64,000 nucleotides of DNA, taken from Linnemannia hyalina. Its lineage: Eukaryota > Mortierellomycota > Mortierellomycetes > Mortierellales > Mortierellaceae. Below, piece by piece: positions 2,177 to 59,339 of this stretch; positions within the stretch are counted from its first letter, which is position 1, and each line of letters begins with the position of its first letter. The notes beneath the pieces are model-generated. The model was not told the DNA's origin and searched no databases. It worked only from the letters and a program-made list of their open reading frames with translations. The stretch is from positions 620,001 to 684,000 of the forward strand of contig JAHRHY010000018.1 of NCBI GenBank assembly GCA_019671135.1, in the 5' to 3' direction. Made by a program: the position numbers and the translations under genes.

Positions 2177-5100
2177 CTACATAAGGACACCTTGGTTACG
2201 CTCGGGATCGTGTAGGCGATGGACACGAACATCTGGACCAGGGTTGACACTGCTGGCATCCTGGGGCGTAATCAGAATGAACTGCACTCCGTCAGCTTCC
2301 CGTGCTGCATCAATCAGCATACTCATACTAATTCGACGGTTCACAGCATCCATGAACACATCAAACTCGTCCAAACTATTCGTTCGAGTAGAAAAAAAAA
2401 ACATTAGTAAGCATGACAAAGGCTTGGCCTGTCAGGCACGCACTGACAATAGAAAGAGACCAAAAAAATGTCGAGACTCACCAGCGAATGGTACTGGCCA
2501 TCGAGTTCCAGAGGGCCAAAAGGAAACAGATGGTCGAAAACGACTTTTCTCCTCCAGACAACGACTTGGGATCCTTGTCTCTCGAGACACCCGCCTGGGC
2601 AGAGTTTGGATCATCCGTCTCAACCTATTAAAGCAAAGATATGTCGTTACTCCCCTATTCTGTAGTAGCCCGCCAAAAATGACAAGATATGAACAACCTT
2701 GCTCTTACCTTGATGGTCAGTTCCTTCTCCGGGTGCTTAAACTGGAGCTCGCCAGAATACTTGCGAAAAGCAAGCAAGAGACTAAAGTTGATCGCAGAAC
2801 GAAGAGACATTTGATTCCGGAATTCGCGCCAGCGCGAAATTCTGTGATGCAGAGTCGGTTTAAGATGCTATCATACGTTGCAAAAAAAAGTGAAAAAAGG
2901 AGGAATAGTAAAACGAGGGTCAGTAATGGAAAGACAAGGTACACATGACCCTTGACCGTACTCAAACATCTACCACAACAAAGAAAATAATGAAAAGGCA
3001 ACACTGAACTTACGTCGATAAATTGGTTCATGTGGTTAATGCTGTCCCTGGCTGTCTTGTACTCGTCCTGCTTGCGTTGCATGTCAAGGACAATCTCCTC
3101 CACAGTGGCGCCACGCGCTTTCTCTTGCGCTAGTAGTTTCGCCTGCATCGCTTTGATCTTCGTTTCCAGATCCTTCTTCGATTTAGTGACCTCGACTCGC
3201 TCACAGTATTCCAGTGCTTGCTCGGTCGAAACTTCCAATTTTTGGATGCTAGCTTGCAATTCCTTCTCGCTTTGCGCGATAATAGCTCGTTCCCGATCCA
3301 GTTTTTTATCCCAGTGCTGGATCCTTGTGAGATATTCTTCACGCTTTTGATTGAGAGTCTCGAGGTCATCCTACAAACGTCAAAAGTTACGCGCGGAATC
3401 TTGTCAGTCAATCGAGATACGTACAAATCGATACCGACTGTGTTCTAATACAAAATATCACAAAAACAAACGACGTACCTGAAGCCTGTTCGCCTTGGAT
3501 TCCTGGGACTGGATGGACTCGTTCAGCTCGACCACCTGTTGCTGGAGGGCTCTCATACTGTCCTTGATGACTTGCTTCTGGGCAAGAATAGGCTCATACT
3601 GCTTCTTCATGGTCTCCATCTCCTCCACATCCTTCTGCTTCGACTCCTCGTACATTTGAATGTTGACAGGCTCGTCCTCTTCCAAGCCCACCTTCAACTC
3701 GTCAATGGCCTTGGTCTTGAGTTTTAACTCTTTCTCCATGTTCGCCAACTGCCTCTTAGTCTGGATGCGCTCCCTATCCGTAGTTTCAACCTCCTTGCCA
3801 AGTTCGTTGAATTCCTTCATCCGATAGCGAAGAGTCTCTTCAAGGCGTCGGCCATTGCCCTCCAATTGCTGCGCTTCCTGCTCCACGTTCACGGCGAGAC
3901 GAGGAGGTCCACGGTATCTGTTCACCGACGAACTGGAGGCACCACCTGCCCGGTCTCCGACACGCCACATGTCCATCGAAAAACATGCACTAACATTGGT
4001 AGGGAACCGACCACCCGGACCTGAGCTGGTCACAACATCACCCTCGCGACGGGTCGCGACTAGAATGGTAGACTCGATGGCGTTCTTGTCAATCATCAGG
4101 CGTCGAACCCACTCATCGTCAAACTCCAGGGCTCTATTGATCGTGAGATACCGGTCCGATGGCTCCTTGTCTCTGTAGTCAAAGATGACCTTTCTGGTCA
4201 GGATGATGTCCGATTGACTAGTAGAATGACCAACAAGAAGGTCGCATTAATATGAGATTATCGCCTACCAACATGTTGAATATAAAAAAAAATCGCTTTT
4301 GTGAACAGAAATGTACCATTTGTTTCTCCTGAGGATGTTCAGAAGAGTAGATCTGTCCTGGTCATGCGTCACAGCGAAAGCGTTCATAACTGGGCTGAGC
4401 ACCGCCTCAATAATGTCCTTGTAGGCCTTCTCCTTCAACTTGACATGACGACCGAGGGGTCCTGTAGGAGGCTCGCCTCTCCATCCTCTCCGCTTGGTCA
4501 CCTCGTCGATATCTCGCAGAACATCGGGAATATACTGTCCAAATGCTCTGAGCGAATTCTGCTTCTGACTCATGAGTTGTTGGATTCGCTCGTTGTTATC
4601 CTTCCGCTCCCTCTGCGCTCGAGCCACAAGGGAGTTGGCCTGCTCGGATCGATTGTTAAGATCTTCCTGTTTCTGCTCCAGCAAAGCGAGGTTTTCCTTG
4701 GTCTCTGCATACCTCCGCTTGCCAACCTCCATCTCGTCCTCAAGCTGCTTGATGTTGTTCTCGATCTCGGCCTTGCGTGGTTGGCCATTCGACTGGAGCT
4801 TCTTTAATTCCTGCTCGATTGTTTGTTCGTAGCCGCGGATCCGATCCTTCAGAACCTTAATCTCATCATTGACCGTCTTCTCCTCCTCGTGCAGCGTCTT
4901 GAGCTCTTCCCGTTTCTCGCGCATCTTCAACTCCAAACCCCTTTTCTCCTCCTGAAATGGCGCCGTCGAGTCTGTTTGCTCCCTGGCAGTCAGCTCAAGA
5001 GCGCGAACTTCCTCGTCAAGTGTGGCCAGCTTTTGCTCCTCTCCTGTGCGTCTGTTTTCGATGGCAGGAACTCGGGCCTCGTGACCCTCCAGCTCCTTCC

Positions 5101-6515
5101 TCAACTCAGTCACTATCCCTTCCAAATCCTCGATCTGAACCCATACAATTTCCTTCTTCATCTCCTCGACTTTGAGCTCCAATGTCGCCGCCTGCTGACT
5201 GTCCTTGAACCGAGCCTGGGCCTCCTTGGCAAGGTGGAGGAGTTCAGGAAGAGCCTCGTTTTTTTTCTTCATGGTCGTCTGCATCATGTCGATACAGTCG
5301 CGGATGTGCTCATAGTCCTGGCTCAGTTGGTGGAGCTGAGTTCCCTTGTTGAAGGAGATGTACTTGTCTGCGGGGGTGGAAGATTGGAGAAACTGACGAG
5401 CCGAGTCCTGTGAGAGAACGTTGATGGGGTTGTCGACCTGGATGTTCATGTGGTCGAGGATAGCAGCTAGATCATCGCGCTTGGTCGAAATTGTCTTGCC
5501 CTTGGCGTTCTTGATCTTGTAGCTCGAGCCTCCGTCCAGAGAAATGCGGCGCTCAACAATGATACTCTCTCCGTAGATATCTGGTTTGTATCCGTCGTTG
5601 CCTCTGTTCCGAAGCTGCAGCCGAACGTCCGTCTGGGTGGCACCCTCACGAATAAGGGCCTTAAGACTGTGACCACGGTTGGTGACGGATGCTTTTCCTC
5701 CAAGGCAGACCATGATAGCGGTCAAAATAGCACTCTTTCCACCTATGTATTCAAATGATTAAGTGGTAATTTTGTTAGTTCCAATCCAGGCACAGAAAAG
5801 TAGCAACGTACTTCCTGTGTAGGCCATGCCACTTACTTCCGTTATGTCCGATAATGAAGTTGATTTTGGGTCCGAATGGCACCTTGAGATGACGATGGCA
5901 CATAAAGTCATGCATTTCAATCATTTCAATGACACCCATCTCTGCAACGGCCTATGATAACGATAGAAGGATTATCGGTTAAGTTCTGCAAGAGACAGTG
6001 AACTTTAAGCCCTTGCCCTACAAGTACAACAGCAAACATACACCATGGCGGCCGGGGGTGGTCTTTGAGGTCTCAAAATCACGGTTCGCCTTTTCGAGCC
6101 ACTCCAAATCATCGGCATTCTTCTCGTGAGTATCCTCGACATCATGCCAGCCCTCAGGTTCCTCTCGACCGACTTCATCGTCATCCTCCTCTTCTTCCTC
6201 GAGCTCTTCCGGGCTTTCTTCTACCGCCACCTCCTTGTGCTTTGCTCTCTTGGGTGCCTAATATACAACAATATTAATTGATTGTTAGCAAAAACATTAT
6301 CCCTGCAACATTCTCAAACGTTCGAGATGGAGGTTTTCGCCGAGATTGGTGAAGTTGTCATTTTGGTGGCAAAGGGTTCAAATCAACAAAAGGAGTCTTT
6401 TTGGACTCACCTTCTCCTTTGCTGACTTTGTTCCATTGCTCGGGGTTCTCTTGGCGACATATTCCTCTTCCTCCTCTTCCTCCTCAATCATCCGCCTCTT
6501 TCTTGGTTCGGGCAT
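2177..6515 (-). CDS. SMC6: Structural maintenance of chromosomes protein 6 (SMC5/6 complex)
   Basis: SMC6 is the ATPase arm that pairs with SMC5 in the nuclear SMC5/6 complex, which resolves recombination intermediates and stalled forks. I read nine exons: 6515-6411, 6257-6042, 5951-5837, 5742-4317, 4217-3479, 3370-3014, 2867-2709, 2624-2482 and 2375-2177. They keep phase throughout and give about 1,152 residues, normal for the family. The Walker A motif GHNGSGKS (about residue 142) is rebuilt across an intron. Then come the SMC6-typical NPINVLSQD stretch, a long coiled coil, a hinge around 540-700, a second coiled coil, the signature LSGGEKS (about 1,060) and the Walker B/D-loop RCLDEFDVFMD. 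The start is the ATG before MPEPRKRR; the acidic N-terminus is typical. It faces the ZNF830-like gene across 242 bp. I see no break. Confidence 0.95.
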
Positions 6516-31952: not shown

Positions 31953-33223
31953 GGATAAAGGAGAGAGTAAGGAGAAACTTATGCCATGGAAAGCAGTGCG
32001 TGCTGGAGTGTCCTTGAAGACCGGAAGCAGGAGTGAGAGTGAGAGAAGGGAGATTAGGTCTTTACGAGAAAGGAGAGGTGCGTCCGAAAGTTGGGAATGA
32101 GGAATGAGAAAAGAGAAGAGAGAGAGAGATGGACAAGCTCCTTTTATTTTGAGTGTGGCGAGTGTGACAGTTTCGATGCCTTAATTGCTCCTCACCCGCC
32201 GTCCCTCTGTCCCTTTCACCCTCTGCTTTTCCCTTCGTTTGTTGGTTCATTCACGGATTAAGTTCTGCGGGATAGCATTAGAGTCGATCAGAGACGGCGT
32301 GGTTCTCCCTGGGAAGGAGTCAGCCAATAGTACCCATTCGTTATCATCCTCTTTCTTTGCACGGACTTTGGTTCTCACAACGACTTGCTGTCGTATCTCA
32401 CCTTTCTCTCTGTGTCATCGCTTTTCTCAACAAACATTCGCTCGAGTCATGGTCATAAAAAAAAATGAATGTTTTGACACACGGGTGACTCCACAACTTT
32501 TGTCTGCTGAACACAAGTTCACACGAACAAAAGAAAAGGCAATGCTGCGGGCGAGCGGCGGATATGAACAAACGCCGAGACTATCAACACCTTGAGTCAC
32601 ACAACAAACAGCAACAATGCATCCTACAGCTTTCTTTCTAAATATGGTGAAGTCCTTGATGTGAACGCCGCGTCTCTGTGTGCTCAATTCTACTCTACTT
32701 TGACATCATGAATACGAGATAAACGCTTCCTTGAAGTTGAATTAAGACACCCATGCTATACGCAGCAGGGGTCATGATTCAGAAGGGTATGCATTCTTGG
32801 GCGTTCATGAATCATAATAATCATAACACATTTCAAACTATTCTTTGATTTCTTTGACACTTTGTTTATTTTTTCCTTCAACTACTGTACAAACATTGGC
32901 GACAAATGAGGGAAAGAGGAGGAAGAAAGAGAGGGGAAGGGATATCGAACTTCTCGTAGACGACATCGGTAAATAGATAGTTACCGTGCGTGAGTAAAGG
33001 TGCTTTTAATCTTTGCCGTGAAAAAAAAATAGCCTGCGATGGTATCTACAACGTTGTAGACCGCTGGTCATTAGAGTATCGGCATGGTGTGTGTGTGTGT
33101 GTGTGTGTGTGGGAAGGGAATGGAAAGGGGAGACAAGACATTACCATAATGAGAGAAATACCTGGAAAAGTCCTAATTTATTCATTTCTCGAACCGATGA
33201 TGGGTCTACAATAAGGCACTTAC
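31953..33223. other. Upstream region of the ABCC gene; 3' flank of the snoRNA host
   Basis: No gene is recognised. There is a (GT)n run at about 33,086-33,111. A minus-strand AATAAA-like signal (plus TTTATT, about 33,177) lies just past the last splice-like site of the snoRNA host and could mark its 3' end. Confidence 0.45.
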
Positions 33224-33759
33224 CTAAGAAACAAGTTCAAAGAGAATGAGAAAAAAACGTTAGAAAACGATTCAAAAACAAAAAAACGCTCAACCGTTCA
33301 CAAGAAGTAGTGTTCAATATGAAGGAGTCAGGAGCTAGTTTTAATCTTTAGATGCATAGAAAAGTCAATCCACCGCCAGAACCCAGGACAACCATCTTAA
33401 CTGTCAACGACCCAAAAGAGAAAAAAGCCCTTCCCTTCCATGCTAAAATCAAACGATACCAAGATCCGCTTTTAACGCATCGAAGCAGGTCTAGAGACCC
33501 ACTAATGCCCACTCAATCTCTCAGAAGAGAGAAAAAGATGAACACCCACTGCACTTGACGAGGAACTACTGTTCCCCCAGAGAGCACAGCCCCAACACTC
33601 ACGAAATCAAGTTCCGCAAATCATAACACGAAAAAGAAGAACCTCCTCCACTTCAAATGGCCACCAACAACGACGATCGAGAGGAAAACTGACAATGAAA
33701 AGACTCCCACCTCCCCATCACATGAGCCAACGCATCAGTCAAGAAAACCTCGAAAGAAT

Positions 33760-33830
33760 TGCCAACCCACGATCAGAAAGAAATGTAGCGTCTTCGTAGA
33801 ATGGATTTAACTAGTTTTCATCATTTGGCA
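33760..33830 (-). ncRNA. Box C/D snoRNA, target unassigned
   Basis: C box ATGATGA (plus 33818-33824) and D box CTGA (33773-33776) lie 41 nt apart. They are enclosed by a perfect 6-bp terminal stem, TGCCAA with TTGGCA. The sequence before the D box, complementary to AAAGAAATGTAGCG, has no rRNA target I can recall. An internal segment is complementary to GAATGGATT, found in a conserved 25S helix, with a bulge beyond it. It lies in the last intron of the host. Confidence 0.65.
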
Positions 33831-34042
33831 TATTGATGTTGAAAGGAATGGGGAATAAGATGGAAGAAAAGAATGGAGACAATGCATACCTTGTATAATA
33901 ATGGAGACCAGACAGATCGAAGCTTGACTTCACATGCCATTGGAGAACAATCTAAAGTCGAGATGATAACAGACAGAACTGGTTAGATACGCGACTCGAG
34001 AAACATCATGAAATGCAAATACAATAGCTGTATGCGGATGTG

Positions 34043-34123
34043 AAGGGTATCAGAGATCAAGTTTGTCTTCTCAATTGAGTCAGATGAAACACGGATGATC
34101 GAATTAGACATCATATTGCCCTT
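34043..34123 (-). ncRNA. Box C/D snoRNA, snR39/snR59/U32-like (25S Am807)
   Basis: C box ATGATGT (34108-34114), D' box CTGA (34080-34083) and D box CTGA (34050-34053) are closed by the stem AAGGG/CCCTT. Upstream of D' the guide is complementary to TGAAACACGGA (34085-34095), a conserved 25S/28S sequence. The fifth nucleotide falls on the second A of TGAA, which I place at yeast A807, the site served by snR39 and snR59. The D-box guide is unassigned. Confidence 0.82.
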
Positions 34124-34320
34124 CCATAACATGGTGTTGCGAGGATGGAGATATGGACACTTACAAAAGTTGTTCAACATGGCAACACGCTTGACGAACG
34201 CGAGCAGACAGACACTAAAGAGGCTAGCATATGATAGACTGGAAGAAGAGAGAAAATACGTTAATGATCAGATCCAAAGCATCAACGCATCGTATTACTT
34301 TGAATGCCATGAGAAGCTTT

Positions 34321-34421
34321 CGAGTAAATGGATCAGAATAGTTTTGGTATAAAAGGGTTATCCACCACGGTCTCAGGTCGGAAGCAGAACTGAATAATTG
34401 TGTCATCACTTTAGATACTCG
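34321..34421 (-). ncRNA. Box C/D snoRNA, snR61/U38-like (25S Am1133), copy B
   Basis: C box GTGATGA (34403-34409) and D box CTGA (34333-34336) are closed by an external stem CGAGTA/TACTCG. A degenerate D' box CCGA (34378-34381) is preceded by a guide complementary to AAGCAGAACTG (34382-34392), conserved in 25S/28S rRNA. The fifth position falls on the A that snR61 and human U38 methylate. The D-side guide is complementary to TTTTGGTA, the rRNA segment directly upstream. Confidence 0.85.
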
Positions 34422-34659
34422 GGGAGCGCCAAGGGTAAGAGGAGGATGAAAGGGGATGGGATGACTTACGCTTTGTGTCTGCTTGACGCGGCATGCATGC
34501 GAATGACATATGCCAATTGAAGGTGTTGCTCAACCTGAAAGAAAATTTAAAAAAAATTGATGAAACTTCGTTAGAATATCATTCAAAAGAGCGCGCACTT
34601 ATTCAGTGAAAGTCGCTGGTTGCTCTCTTCTCTTCGTCGTCATTGAAAGGCGAACGAAT

Positions 34660-34755
34660 CGATAGATCAGAATATGTTTTGGTATAAAAGGGTTATCCAC
34701 CACGGTCTCAGGTCGGAAGCAGAACTGAATAAATTGTGTCATCACTTTAGACGAA
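34660..34755 (-). ncRNA. Box C/D snoRNA, snR61/U38-like (25S Am1133), copy A
   Basis: C box GTGATGA (34739-34745), D box CTGA (34667-34670), degenerate D' CCGA and the guide AAGCAGAACTG complement (34717-34727) are all as in copy B. The two copies are nearly identical over about 78 nt (two single-base indels) and differ outside it. The flanks still offer a short external stem (GGCGA/TCGCC), different in sequence from that of copy B. Confidence 0.85.
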
Positions 34756-34983
34756 CGGTCGCCAATGTCGAAGGAAAGAGAAAGAGTAGGTGGACGCGTT
34801 GGAAGGAGAAAACTTACAAATGACGATTGATATCGCTCACGACTTAATGTCAGACCCGATCAAATAGACGCCGATTGAAGTAACATCTGGAAGATAAAAA
34901 GATAGAAAAGAACGATGAGGGTTAACATCTCTTTTCTTGCACTGTTGAATAGGTTCAATGTTACCACAACAAGAGTTGAAGGT

Positions 34984-35074
34984 CAATTGATGAATCGTCA
35001 GATGGTAGTGCATGTTTCATTTGCTCAGGTGCTCACTAGGAAACGGTATGGAGATATCCTCATTCGAATCAATG
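34984..35074 (-). ncRNA. Box C/D snoRNA, snR55/U33-like (18S Um1269)
   Basis: D box CTGA (34998-35001) is preceded by the guide CATGCACTACCAT, the same string I remember before the D box of human U33 (SNORD33). It pairs with the conserved 18S segment GGTGGTGCATG with one G-U pair. The fifth nucleotide (35006) faces the U that is yeast Um1269. The C box is imperfect (ATGAGGA, 35057-35063). A TTGAT/ATCAA stem closes the element. Confidence 0.82.
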
Positions 35075-35346
35075 ATCCTCGTTGTTGAGAAGGGTGAAGG
35101 GAAGAGAGTGGGTTGGTTGACTTACCAAAAGAGAAAACTGATCGAAGATCAGAACTGAATCAAGATCCATTCCTTTTTCTTTCCAGATTCCGATCAAGTG
35201 AATTCCGTTCCATGGCGAAATGAAAAACAGCTCGAGTCGAGATCTACATTCAGCAAAGAACAAAAAGCAAAAAGTCGCGTTAGGAGACTGAAGTTTTGAC
35301 CGCGAATATGTAGTTCCTTCCTCTTTGCAAAGAGGAGTATGAGAGG

Positions 35347-35467
35347 GTGTTTTGACTTTTGAGTGGTCAGAAACGAGGAATTCCATTTGTTTACGAAAGA
35401 TCCACATCGTGTATTCGGGGTATCATTTTACGTACAACTTTTCATCAGATGAAGCCGATCAAAACAC
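35347..35467 (-). ncRNA. Box C/D snoRNA, snR57-like (18S Gm1572)
   Basis: C box CTGATGA (35442-35448) and D box CTGA (35367-35370) are closed by a 9-bp external stem, GTGTTTTGA with TCAAAACAC. The D-box guide is complementary to AACGAGGAATTCC (35372-35384), a universally conserved 18S sequence. The fifth nucleotide (35375) is the G I place at yeast G1572, methylated under snR57. It lies in the first host intron. Confidence 0.84.
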
Positions 35468-35609
35468 GCGCGCACGCACTCTTGTAAAGATGAGGATGGA
35501 AGATAGGGGTCACTGACTACTTACCAAGAAAAAAGAAGAGGTAATGGTGTGGGGGAGTGGGTTGAAGAAGAGAAGAAGAGAAAAGAAAACAACCACGAGA
35601 AAATTTTTT

Positions 35610-35615
35610 TTTATA
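35610..35615 (-). promoter_or_regulatory. TATA box of the snoRNA host gene
   Basis: TATAAA on the minus strand inside ACATATAAAAAAAAAT. A pyrimidine-rich first exon begins about 25-35 bp downstream, where a start site would be expected. Confidence 0.6.
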
Positions 35616-47894: not shown

Positions 47895-49019
47895 TGTTGA
47901 TTGAAGAGTGGGGAGTGAGTGATGGATGAATGGGAAAAAGAAGAAAGGGAAAAGAGAGGAGAGCGGAAGGGGTTATTTCGAATGATTTGTTGTCCGTGGA
48001 AGAGGTGGAGAGGTGAGGAGCGAACCTTACTGCAGGCCCAGCCAGTCAGATTCAAGGGCGACGGGACAAAGTGAGGGAGGGGCGGGTGGGGACTGCTTTT
48101 CTGCCGCCTTGGATCTTGAAGGTTTCACGTGCGAAAAATGGAATGCGTTCCTGGAGGATGACAGGATGACATGGCCATCCGTCCATGTTTGTGTTCACCT
48201 CTGTCAGTGGTCCACTGACTCCCCCACTGGCTGCCCTTGTATTATTGTGTGCAGTTCACACTACATGTACCGGTACATTACTAAAAGGGAAACATGGGGG
48301 CATACACCCATATGTACACTCTGCTCCAGTGAGCAATCGCTCCACGCGGCTTATTATTCTCCGTCACTCATATCCAATGGGCTTCTTCATAAACAAGCGC
48401 TGCCAATCGATTCTTCTTGGAAATACCGGCACTGGATTCCAGGTTCTATTATTTGATGTCATCATGGGTTGCCCATCCCTTCTCGTTGTTGGTGGGCGTA
48501 GCACACCTTCAATCCGTCCAACCAACATGAATAAAGCAGTAACATATATATAAAAAGATACCTCGTTGAATTGGCAAGGTGGGCTAATGAAGAGTTGGAT
48601 GTCATGTCCCCCACACTATACCAGCCAATGATTACCTTGTCCCTCGAAATACAAACGCAAAAATAAACAACAGTTGACAGCCCAAGTAAACAAAACCACT
48701 CGTCAGTCTGTGTGTGTTTCTCTTTGTGTCCGTGGGCAACGTTGCATATTTCCATTGTTTCTTTCCGATGGTGATCGGTATGGAAGGTATCCTTGGGAGT
48801 TGAAGAGAGATCAAAGGATGGTTTCAAAGACGCAGGAAGGAACCAAAACGAAGTGCGTTTTCTTGAGGGAGGAGATGGCAGGATGAGTTGGTTGGTTTCA
48901 TTAGGAACAGCCATAGGCAGAGTCGAAGGTTCAAAGGTAGACGGGCATGCGAGGGGAGTAGTCAATCCGATGCATCGATCACAATAGTAGGGATAATAAT
49001 GAGGTGACTCAGGCGAGCA

Positions 49020-49050
<31 letters not shown>

Positions 49051-49620
49051 AAACAAACAAACAAACAAACATGGACAGATGGACAACAACAACAAGAAGA
49101 AGAAGAAGAAGAAGAAGAAGAAGCACAACAGTCGACCGACATGTCTGCCCGTGTGAGCGATGTCCGTCCGTCAGGGTGACATCGACCAGGGACAAGTGGT
49201 CCCTGAAAACATAAAATATCTAGATTTCGGGCTGTCCCGAAATGGGTGTCACCCCTCACTCTCTTGTCTTTGTCCTCAAAAAGAGACCTGGTTCTCATTC
49301 ATCTTTTCTCTCTTCTTCTTTCTTTCTTTCCTTCATTCACTCCCATCATCTCATCGACTTGCCACCATACAGTCCGCCCCACTCCTACTCTTCCTGCCCT
49401 TTCAACTCTTCACCCTCCTTGCATACAAACACAACGCAACTTCTCCTTCCGCCGAACCGAAAATTAACTTGTTACTCCATCAACTACCACTGCTCTCTCA
49501 ACTGATCAGCTCTCGACTCCAAGGTCACTTAACTCATCAACAACCTCCCTCGCCCTTCATCACACTTCCGCTCTTCCTCTACTCTTACCTCCTCCTTCTT
49601 TCAGCCCAACCAACAAAAGA
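47895..49620. other. Divergent intergenic region with simple repeats
   Basis: It separates the acyl-CoA dehydrogenase and carrier start codons. It holds a poly-A/(AAAC)n tract and an (AAG)n tract, described separately, and a long CT-rich leader (49,270-49,615) before the carrier. No gene is recognised. Confidence 0.5.
49019..49125. repeat. Poly-A, (AAAC)n and (AAG)n simple repeats
   Basis: An A-run of more than 20 at 49,020 is followed by about five AAAC units. (AAC) and about nine AAG units lie at 49,085-49,122. Confidence 0.9.
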
Positions 49621-58080: not shown

Positions 58081-58659
58081 CACCAAGTGAACCGCGGCTT
58101 TTGACACCTTGGTTACTTGGAGAGGTCATATGGAAAGACAAGCCAGCGCCCACGCCTAGCCTATGCGCCTTTCATGGACCCAAGGAGCAACCAACACGCA
58201 ACAGCTCGTGACCAGCAGCACCATCATGAACCAAGGAATGGTTCATGGAGAGGTCATAGCAAGAAGCAGTCCAGCGCCCACGCCTAGCCTATAGCTTCTC
58301 ATGGACCCAAGGAACTGGCCATTCACTGTTGCGATACAGATCCCTGCTCTTCCCAGAGAGAAGCGGACTCGAGAACGGATGGGGTCGTATGGAGGAAATC
58401 TCCTTCATCCTCTATCCTCATGTACCCACGAGTCTGATGGAGAACAAACTGATTGAAATGCAGCACCACCATGGCTGGAGATAACCCCAGCCACGGAGAG
58501 GTCATAGTAAGGGAGCAGTCCAGCGCCCACGCCTAGCCTATAGCTCCCCATGGACCCAAGGAGCAATCCCAAGCAGCCGCTCAAATCGCAGCCATACGCC
58601 CGAGGAGAGGTCATAGCAAGAGGCGCGCCTAGCCTATGTGCCTCTCATGGACCCACGGA
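58081..58659. repeat. Four copies of a stem-variable double-hairpin element
   Basis: Copies run about 58,081-58,186, 58,217-58,313, 58,461-58,562 and 58,571-58,659. Each has a GCAGCACCA-like lead, a first hairpin, the constant link GGAGAGGTCATA, a second hairpin around CGCCTAGCCTAT, and the constant end CATGGACCC(A)AGGA. Stem 1 is CCAAGT.AACC, ATGAACC and TGGCTGG with their complements in copies 1-3; it is weak in copy 4. Stem 2 is GAAAG, AGAAGC, GGGAGC and AGAGGC with their complements. The loops and links are conserved while the stems change in concert. Copy 4 lacks 14 bases of the second loop. No coding frame explains the conservation. Confidence 0.8.
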
Positions 58660-58885
58660 GGACCCTGCTCGCATCCATCCACCAAATCCGTTCAACACGC
58701 CATGCTTGACCTTCTAAGAGACTACCATTACCTTCTTGATTATTGCCGTTGTTTTCATCGTCGTTGACGTTCTTGTCCAAATCGGCGCGCGATACTTGTT
58801 GCTGCAGAATAGTGTTGATGGTGAGTATTGCTGAAGATGGGAACGTTATCCATTATCATCTTGTGCTCATGACTGAAAAGATTCT

Positions 58886-58950
58886 AGGACAATGGGCGCG
58901 AAAATTACGTCACCGAAATGGTACGACGTAATTTTCGCGCCCATTGTCCT
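58886..58950. repeat. Perfect 26-bp inverted repeat with 13-bp loop
   Basis: Arm 58886-58911 (AGGACAATGGGCGCG...) is the exact reverse complement of arm 58925-58950. The loop can pair further (ACC with GGT). It could be a foldback element, the two ends of a transposon left after loss of its middle, or a cruciform-forming site. No flanking target-site duplication is obvious. Confidence 0.9.
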
Positions 58951-59339
58951 GTATGAGAGTTACATTGATCCAGCCGATGCTGAATGCATGAACGCTCATC
59001 AGAGCGCAACTCATATCCGCGCGGTAAGGCTCCAACATCCTGAATTTGCTATGAACCAGTACGACATCCATAAGTCATCAACAATATCAATTAACTAACC
59101 AATCAACTTGTGAATTTGATAAACAGATCAACAACATCCAACAATGTCAAAGCACGCTTTGGATCCATCAGCCGCGATGTAATAGGGAGTCTTAAACCTT
59201 GACGTTTGACGTGTAAGTAAATGCGCTGTCAAGGAAACCCGCCATGGAATAACGTTTCCTCGATGGCTGATGTATTTCAAATACGCCATTGAAATATGCT
59301 TCGATTCGAATGTGGGCATGTCAACGTTTGAAACCCTTA

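Follow-up and report, generated by a model that had tools for sequence, protein, structure and literature searches.

Three clusters of C/D snoRNA genes are reported to occur in nearly all fungi analysed, and to be intronic in the Euascomycetes, the Basidiomycota and the Rhizopus oryzae studied, where their host genes are poorly conserved and lack long open reading frames (ORFs); the introns were lost in Saccharomyces, and snR57 was lost in Euascomycetes (PMC3596301). Splicing of one of these clusters, the snR57-snR55-snR61 group or cluster II, from a non-coding host has been described in Candida (PMC5033589), and Neurospora hosts were termed UHG-like in 2009 (PMC2780460). A sequence-only reading of the DNA analysed here had assumed that, in most cases, fungal snoRNA clusters form intergenic polycistrons or occupy introns of protein genes; for these C/D clusters the generalisation fails outside Saccharomyces and its close relatives, because cluster II is reported as intronic in non-coding hosts (PMC3596301; PMC5033589). 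The same reading had compared the locus with the animal UHG/GAS5 genes. The sequence supports this well, and we regard the locus as a spliced, non-coding host gene of that type with one C/D snoRNA per intron, but the novelty for fungi that had been attached to it does not hold (PMC3596301; PMC2780460).

The window, that is, the whole stretch of 64,000 nucleotides of Linnemannia hyalina DNA that was analysed, carries this host gene on its minus strand, from about 35585 to 33150 as judged from sequence signals, the start and end of the transcript being assumed positions (table 1). The locus is very probably the Mortierellaceae version of the conserved cluster II, with the mechanism of a snoRNA host, because its guides and its gene order equal those published: snR57, snR55 and snR61 follow one another on one strand (Rfam and guides; targets from PMC8307265), every snoRNA sits in an intron of its own with a predicted donor, branch point and acceptor, and the predicted spliced host RNA has no long ORF. 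Since gene type and core guides have been published from many fungi, the locus is an ordinary, slightly enlarged example, to which it adds the Mortierellaceae record, a second snR61 and two extra introns. Searches of its own genome (51.5 Mb, 50 contigs) with the DNA of the whole locus and with the snR61 family returned at least one place, this locus.

Table 1. Features of the host gene (positions in the window) and of two snR107-U14 loci in the same genome (contig positions).
Feature	Position	Strand	Basis
TATA-like element TATAAAA	35609-35615	minus	sequence
Exon 1, pyrimidine-rich	35525-35585	minus	5' end assumed
Intron 1	35244-35524	minus	GTAAGT, CTAAC, AG
C/D RNA of intron 1, snR57-like, including 9-bp closing stem	35347-35467	minus	guide to 18S Gm1572
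Exon 2	35126-35243	minus	splice model
Intron 2	34887-35125	minus	GTAAGT, TTAAC, AG
C/D RNA of intron 2, snR55/SNORD33, 6-bp stem	34986-35073	minus	RF00133 score; guide to 18S Um1269
Exon 3	34818-34886	minus	splice model
Intron 3	34535-34817	minus	GTAAGT, CTAAC, AG
snR61 copy 1, 5-bp outer stem GGCGA/TCGCC	34649-34763	minus	RF00476 at 34664-34750
Exon 4	34470-34534	minus	splice model
Intron 4	34239-34469	minus	GTAAGT, TTAAC, AG
snR61 copy 2, 6-bp stem CGAGTA/TACTCG	34321-34421	minus	RF00476 at 34330-34414
Exon 5	34165-34238	minus	splice model
Intron 5	33952-34164	minus	GTAAGT, CTAAC, AG
C/D RNA of intron 5, 6-bp stem	34042-34124	minus	D' guide to U18 region of 25S
Exon 6	33890-33951	minus	splice model
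Intron 6, 666 nt	33224-33889	minus	GTATGC, CTAAC, AG
C/D RNA of intron 6, putative orphan, 6-bp stem TGCCAA/TTGGCA	33760-33830	minus	sequence
GU-rich RNA rod within intron 6, 93 bp, three-hairpin head	33362-33706	minus	folding
Terminal exon, AATAAA at 33177-33182	33150-33223	minus	sequence; 3' end assumed
snR107-U14 locus (L039)	C50:1170000-1178500		Rfam, below cut-off
snR107-U14 locus (L040)	C18:114500-123000		Rfam, below cut-off

The introns measure 281, 239, 283, 231, 213 and 666 nt from the first to the sixth, and the internal exons 118, 69, 65, 74 and 62 nt. The strong GTAAGT donors described by the sequence-only reading are found in introns 1-5, whereas intron 6 begins with GTATGC; a branch point of the form CTAAC or TTAAC is present in all six, with its A placed 36, 35, 36, 22, 31 and 36 nt from the AG. 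The pyrimidine run behind a TATA box is also there: the element reads TATAAAA on the minus strand (35615-35609), and the best 40 nt upstream of the first donor are 90% pyrimidine, a strength equalled by 3.4% of 4,000 random genomic 160-mers. All three host genes that we examined in this genome have a pyrimidine-rich stretch before the first donor (background 3.4%, 7% and 2%) and two of the three a TATAAAA element. The promoter region fits a putative TOP-like start. At the other end, a further recursive splice is possible, because the terminal exon opens with GTAAGT directly after the last acceptor AG (window 33223-33224); an AG occurs within this exon at 33162-33163, with no CTAAC-like branch point seen before it. 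Recursive splicing within the snR57-55-61 cluster has been described in Candida (PMC5033589). Just downstream of the gene, on the minus strand, lies the near-palindrome GGTCTACAACGTTGTAGATACC (window 33041-33062), and a run of T follows soon after. The downstream neighbour is an ABC transporter gene, and upstream there are ORFs, one of them with a sub-threshold leucine-rich-repeat match. An hsp78 exon in the window is 93% and 91% identical to proteins of Haplosporangium bisporale and Lobosporangium transversale, respectively (62-63% of the query), the best matches among those carrying an organism name; both species are Mortierellaceae, so that Mortierellomycota is very probably the correct phylum.

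Coordinates on the minus strand and comparison with shuffled sequences bear out that there are six C/D RNAs, one per intron between small exons, less firmly for intron 6. The perfect closing stems of 9, 6, 6 and 5 bp previously noticed in four of them are real, and all six RNAs have one (9, 6, 5, 6, 6 and 6 bp in introns 1-6). One C/D RNA is indeed recognisable in each intron, but the C box is not canonical in intron 1 (CTGATGA), intron 2 (ATGAGGA) or intron 5 (ATGATGT). Among 400 dinucleotide shuffles of each of introns 1-5, a C/D pair with a stem of at least 5 bp arose in 3, 3, 0, 2 and 5 cases, respectively. Under the same rule, a C/D pair of any kind occurred in 88 of 400 shuffles of intron 6, and in 14 of 400 a pair came with a stem of at least 5 bp; the real C-D spacing in this intron, 48 nt, falls under the rule's minimum of 50; a stricter rule (RTGATGA, spacing 45-130, stem of at least 6), which was fixed only after the real RNA had been seen, is matched by 3 of 1,000 shuffles. 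The support against a chance origin is weaker for this RNA than for those of introns 1-5.

Rfam recognised some of the RNAs. Both copies of snR61 exceed the gathering score of 45 for RF00476 (snosnR61), with 53.7 bits for copy 1 and 51.3 for copy 2; in a whole-genome search they scored lower, 40.9 and 39.1, and fell short of the cut-off. The snR55 candidate in intron 2 narrowly missed the threshold of 44 for RF00133 (SNORD33), with 43.4 bits and an E-value of 1e-5, and introns 1, 5 and 6 gave no acceptable match in Rfam. The cores of the two snR61 copies (introns 3 and 4) are 96.7% identical and their flanks 56.5% and 48.1%, values that are at chance level (202 and 255 of 500 dinucleotide shuffles); the closing stems pair in both copies with different letters (table 1).

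Target sites were sought outside the genome. Its own assembly yielded no match to the 18S-start motif with two mismatches allowed and one match to the LSU motif, in an isolated fragment; no intact rDNA unit having been found there, we therefore used ten other rDNA contigs, which come from bacterial records and each carry a eukaryotic 18S end. The isolated LSU-rRNA-like fragment lies on contig C1 at about 2529.5 kb (about 5040-5400 of stretch L004). The D guide of intron 1 pairs over 11-14 nt with 18S, 0-2 nt from box D, in seven of the ten contigs, a number equalled by none of 300 shuffled guides. That of intron 2 pairs over 13 nt (2 G-U) in four of the ten, 524-543 nt from the 18S end, and its recurrent matches, in five of the ten, were likewise equalled by 0 of 300 shuffled guides; contig L012 shows 10 nt with a 3-nt gap, contig L009 a match at another place, and in contigs L008, L010 and L014 the 18S portion is too short to include the site. 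The bases paired at D+5 in contig L013 sit 225+3 nt (intron 1) and 528+3 nt (intron 2) before the 18S end, which presumably converts to yeast 18S positions 1572 and 1269, given the yeast 18S length and 3' end as we take them to be. Gm1572 is assigned to snR57, Um1269 to snR55 and Am1133 to snR61 (PMC8307265). By guide and Rfam matches, the predicted RNA of intron 1 is snR57 (18S Gm1572), that of intron 2 is snR55 (18S Um1269), and snR61 (25S Am1133) is present twice, in introns 3 and 4.

The D' guide of snR61 (box CCGA) pairs with 10-12 nt of the AAGCAGRACTGG motif in seven of the ten contigs, its +5 base being the A of AAGC[A]. At the chosen score it is found in five of the ten, which 3 of 300 shuffled guides equalled, and its scores of 10.0-11.3 stand beside a chance match of 10.4 in non-rDNA (L004). 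In eight of the ten contigs (0 of 300 shuffled guides), the D' guide of intron 5 pairs over 10-12 nt with GAAACACGG, a stretch of 25S in the U18 region; the snR61 and U18 LSU motifs are absent from contigs L013 and L010. U18 (SNORD18) is defined by a methyl group at 25S A649, and for the intron 5 RNA the +5 rule gives instead an A 3 nt earlier, an offset that depends on the U18 box position and motif numbering as we assume them. For introns 5 and 6, the D guides matched none of the ten rDNA contigs at the chosen score; with one mismatch allowed, they gave weak scattered matches and one of 11.3 in L004, at a place that is not rDNA. Because its D guide matches none of the ten contigs, the C/D RNA of intron 6 appears to be an orphan and may lack function.

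Elsewhere in the genome, the search for U14 identified two loci, at 35 and 34 bits, both under the family cut-off of 64, and an snR107 adjoins each U14 (37.5 and 35.1 bits against an Rfam cut-off of 44, E-values of 5e-4 and 2e-3). The two loci look like paralogous host genes, with the snoRNAs in consecutive introns and an exon between them. The snR107 sequences are 98.2% identical and the U14 sequences 96.0%; identity in the two pairs of exons that were compared is 45.8% and 38.4%, the level of shuffled sequences, the limits of the second exon of the L040 copy being uncertain, and three flanks are 54-56% identical, exceeding mononucleotide shuffles. This duplicated gene provides a natural control: its snoRNAs have remained similar, and the exons that were compared have not. 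The stretch that follows U14 up to the next acceptor (193 and 201 nt) is 73.7% identical, above the other flanks, and further C/D-like motifs are visible in it by eye; that intron perhaps holds another RNA.

Alongside the observed layout, guides and lack of coding signal, we infer transcription, splicing, trimming and methylation as follows. RNA polymerase II would make a transcript whose tiny exons, which are non-coding, are joined by splicing, and the excised introns would be debranched and trimmed back to the C/D RNA protected by its proteins, the closing stem of each RNA aiding RNP assembly. The mature RNAs would guide 2'-O-methylation at 18S Gm1572 and Um1269, at 25S Am1133 and at a 25S site beside that of U18, one RNA being left with no target found, and the exons would be disposable. 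If the exons instead specified a small protein, in a coding gene with intronic snoRNAs, one would point to the frame of 86 codons that the spliced model leaves open from exon 3 through exon 7 and to the 60-aa ORF beginning with ATG. The latter is the longest spliced ORF, and an ORF of 60 aa or more occurs in 151 of 400 shuffles; moreover, stops close all three frames of exon 3, a word-level search of 5.8 billion proteins returned no homologue, and no Pfam match to any of four unspliced ORFs from the locus exceeded the cut-off. We consequently rejected a coding host, which is scarcely credible, and the non-coding nature claimed for the gene is upheld. Common ancestry of exons 3 and 4 was also rejected, their best local score being matched by 98 of 1,000 shuffles. 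As to possible hairpins at the exon junctions, the spliced RNA folds at -133, compared with -117 +/- 6 for 30 mononucleotide shuffles. It is highly improbable, too, that the locus is an unspliced polycistron of the Saccharomyces type, cut between the snoRNAs by RNase III and bearing splice signals as relics: S. cerevisiae does make its cluster II snoRNAs from an unspliced transcript (PMC3596301), but here six of six introns retain a regularly spaced set of donor, branch point and acceptor. As to the second snR61, the fact that likeness ends near the mature ends, with flanks at chance level against dinucleotide shuffles, would suit retroposition of a mature snoRNA into the neighbouring intron, or gene conversion, rather than duplication of a whole intron. 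We consider this unlikely, however, since the duplicated snR107-U14 host gene displays the same identity restricted to the core after what appears to be duplication of a whole gene, and neither an A-tail nor a target-site repeat is seen by eye.

The long tail of intron 6 raises a separate question. Its 501 nt fold with an energy of -172 kcal/mol, which none of 100 shuffles reaches (z -5.8), and the core of the rod (33702-33362, limits picked after the fold had been seen) reaches -134, against -96 +/- 4.9 for 600 dinucleotide shuffles and -47 for the plus strand. We lean slightly towards a functionless product of chance on a G/U-rich strand. Against a background of 264 kb, made up of the window plus 20 further stretches, each of 10 kb, the composition-adjusted energy ranks 24th of 2,968 strand-windows, and the strand asymmetry, the largest of 1,484 when raw, ranks 220th of 1,484 after G+T adjustment; the effect shrinks when windows are fixed at 350 nt (z -4.1, rank 7 of 728 in the window). 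The arms contain 50 Watson-Crick, 39 G-U and 1 A-C pairs, the wobble-like classes having been scored alike, a bias that would argue against chance, but base content by itself favours G-U over A-C about 5 to 1. What speaks against chance is that none of the 600 dinucleotide shuffles reaches the energy of the core and that the longest helix, 26 bp, compares with a maximum of 19 in 600 shuffles. Shuffling in blocks of three different sizes, 120 times for each, likewise never reached the real energy, with z between -7.4 and -8.5 for the core and between -4.9 and -6.8 for the tail. The rod thus beats shuffled sequences yet is not extreme against the genome background.

That the rod is an undescribed structured RNA under selection, which shortens the distance between snoRNA and branch point or serves as an RNase III site, is a doubtful proposal that we advance only tentatively. 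Box D and the branch point are 66-95 nt apart in introns 1-5. In intron 6 the chain between them is 512 nt long, a distance that drops to 167 nt with the rod collapsed and to 100 nt if the outer closure seen in the minimum-energy fold is counted; folding would shrink the intron to the size of its neighbours and bring the snoRNA near the usual distance. Alternatively, an RNase III site in the rod would free the last snoRNA by a second route: the 26-bp helix would satisfy Pac1, the RNase III of fission yeast, because the minimum stem of that enzyme is 20 bp (PMC12508059). We found no paper, in the literature searched, on intron folding that sets the distance from snoRNA to branch point, and the rod, if real, bears on how this distance is fixed. 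A known RNA family in the tail was rejected (seven matches up to an E-value of 10, all far below cut-off), as was a repeat or transposon origin, with at least one genome match, the rod itself, and no other among the matches listed; no DNA inverted repeat between the arms was detected at the settings used. Two other parts of the window, 58626-59150 and 49001-49350, fold beyond shuffles on both strands, the behaviour expected of inverted repeats in DNA, for example MITEs.

The locus places an intronic, non-coding cluster II in Mortierellaceae, consistent with this being the ancestral fungal state. No Mortierellomycota example was found in the literature searched, which covered few subscription papers, and the locus is perhaps, but not certainly, the first record for the taxon. 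A fungal non-coding host is likewise described for the snR107-U14 locus of fission yeasts, a different gene from cluster II, whose conservation is reported not to be evident beyond Schizosaccharomyces species (PMC12508059); the Linnemannia genome has two copies of it, and U14, exonic rather than intronic in S. pombe, is apparently intronic here. The UHG-like hosts of Neurospora crassa are also spliced, with short ORFs only and one C/D RNA per intron, and chromosome IV carries two of their RNAs in introns, CD34 (snR55) and CD38 (snR61) (PMC2780460); the transcripts were demonstrated there by RT-PCR, whereas the junctions are predicted here. Like animal UHG/GAS5, the gene would work through disposable exons and functional introns, and it has a pyrimidine-rich region near its assumed start; in those 5'TOP genes the transcript opens with a C and a pyrimidine tract, and the spliced RNA decays. 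The closest counterpart is the published cluster II (PMC3596301; in Candida, PMC5033589), in which these three guides follow one another in identical order, each in its own intron, between non-coding exons. The Linnemannia gene differs from it in having two copies of snR61, an intron with a guide to the U18 region, an orphan intron and a last intron of 666 nt with a long RNA stem, and it has kept the snR57 that Euascomycetes are reported to have lost.
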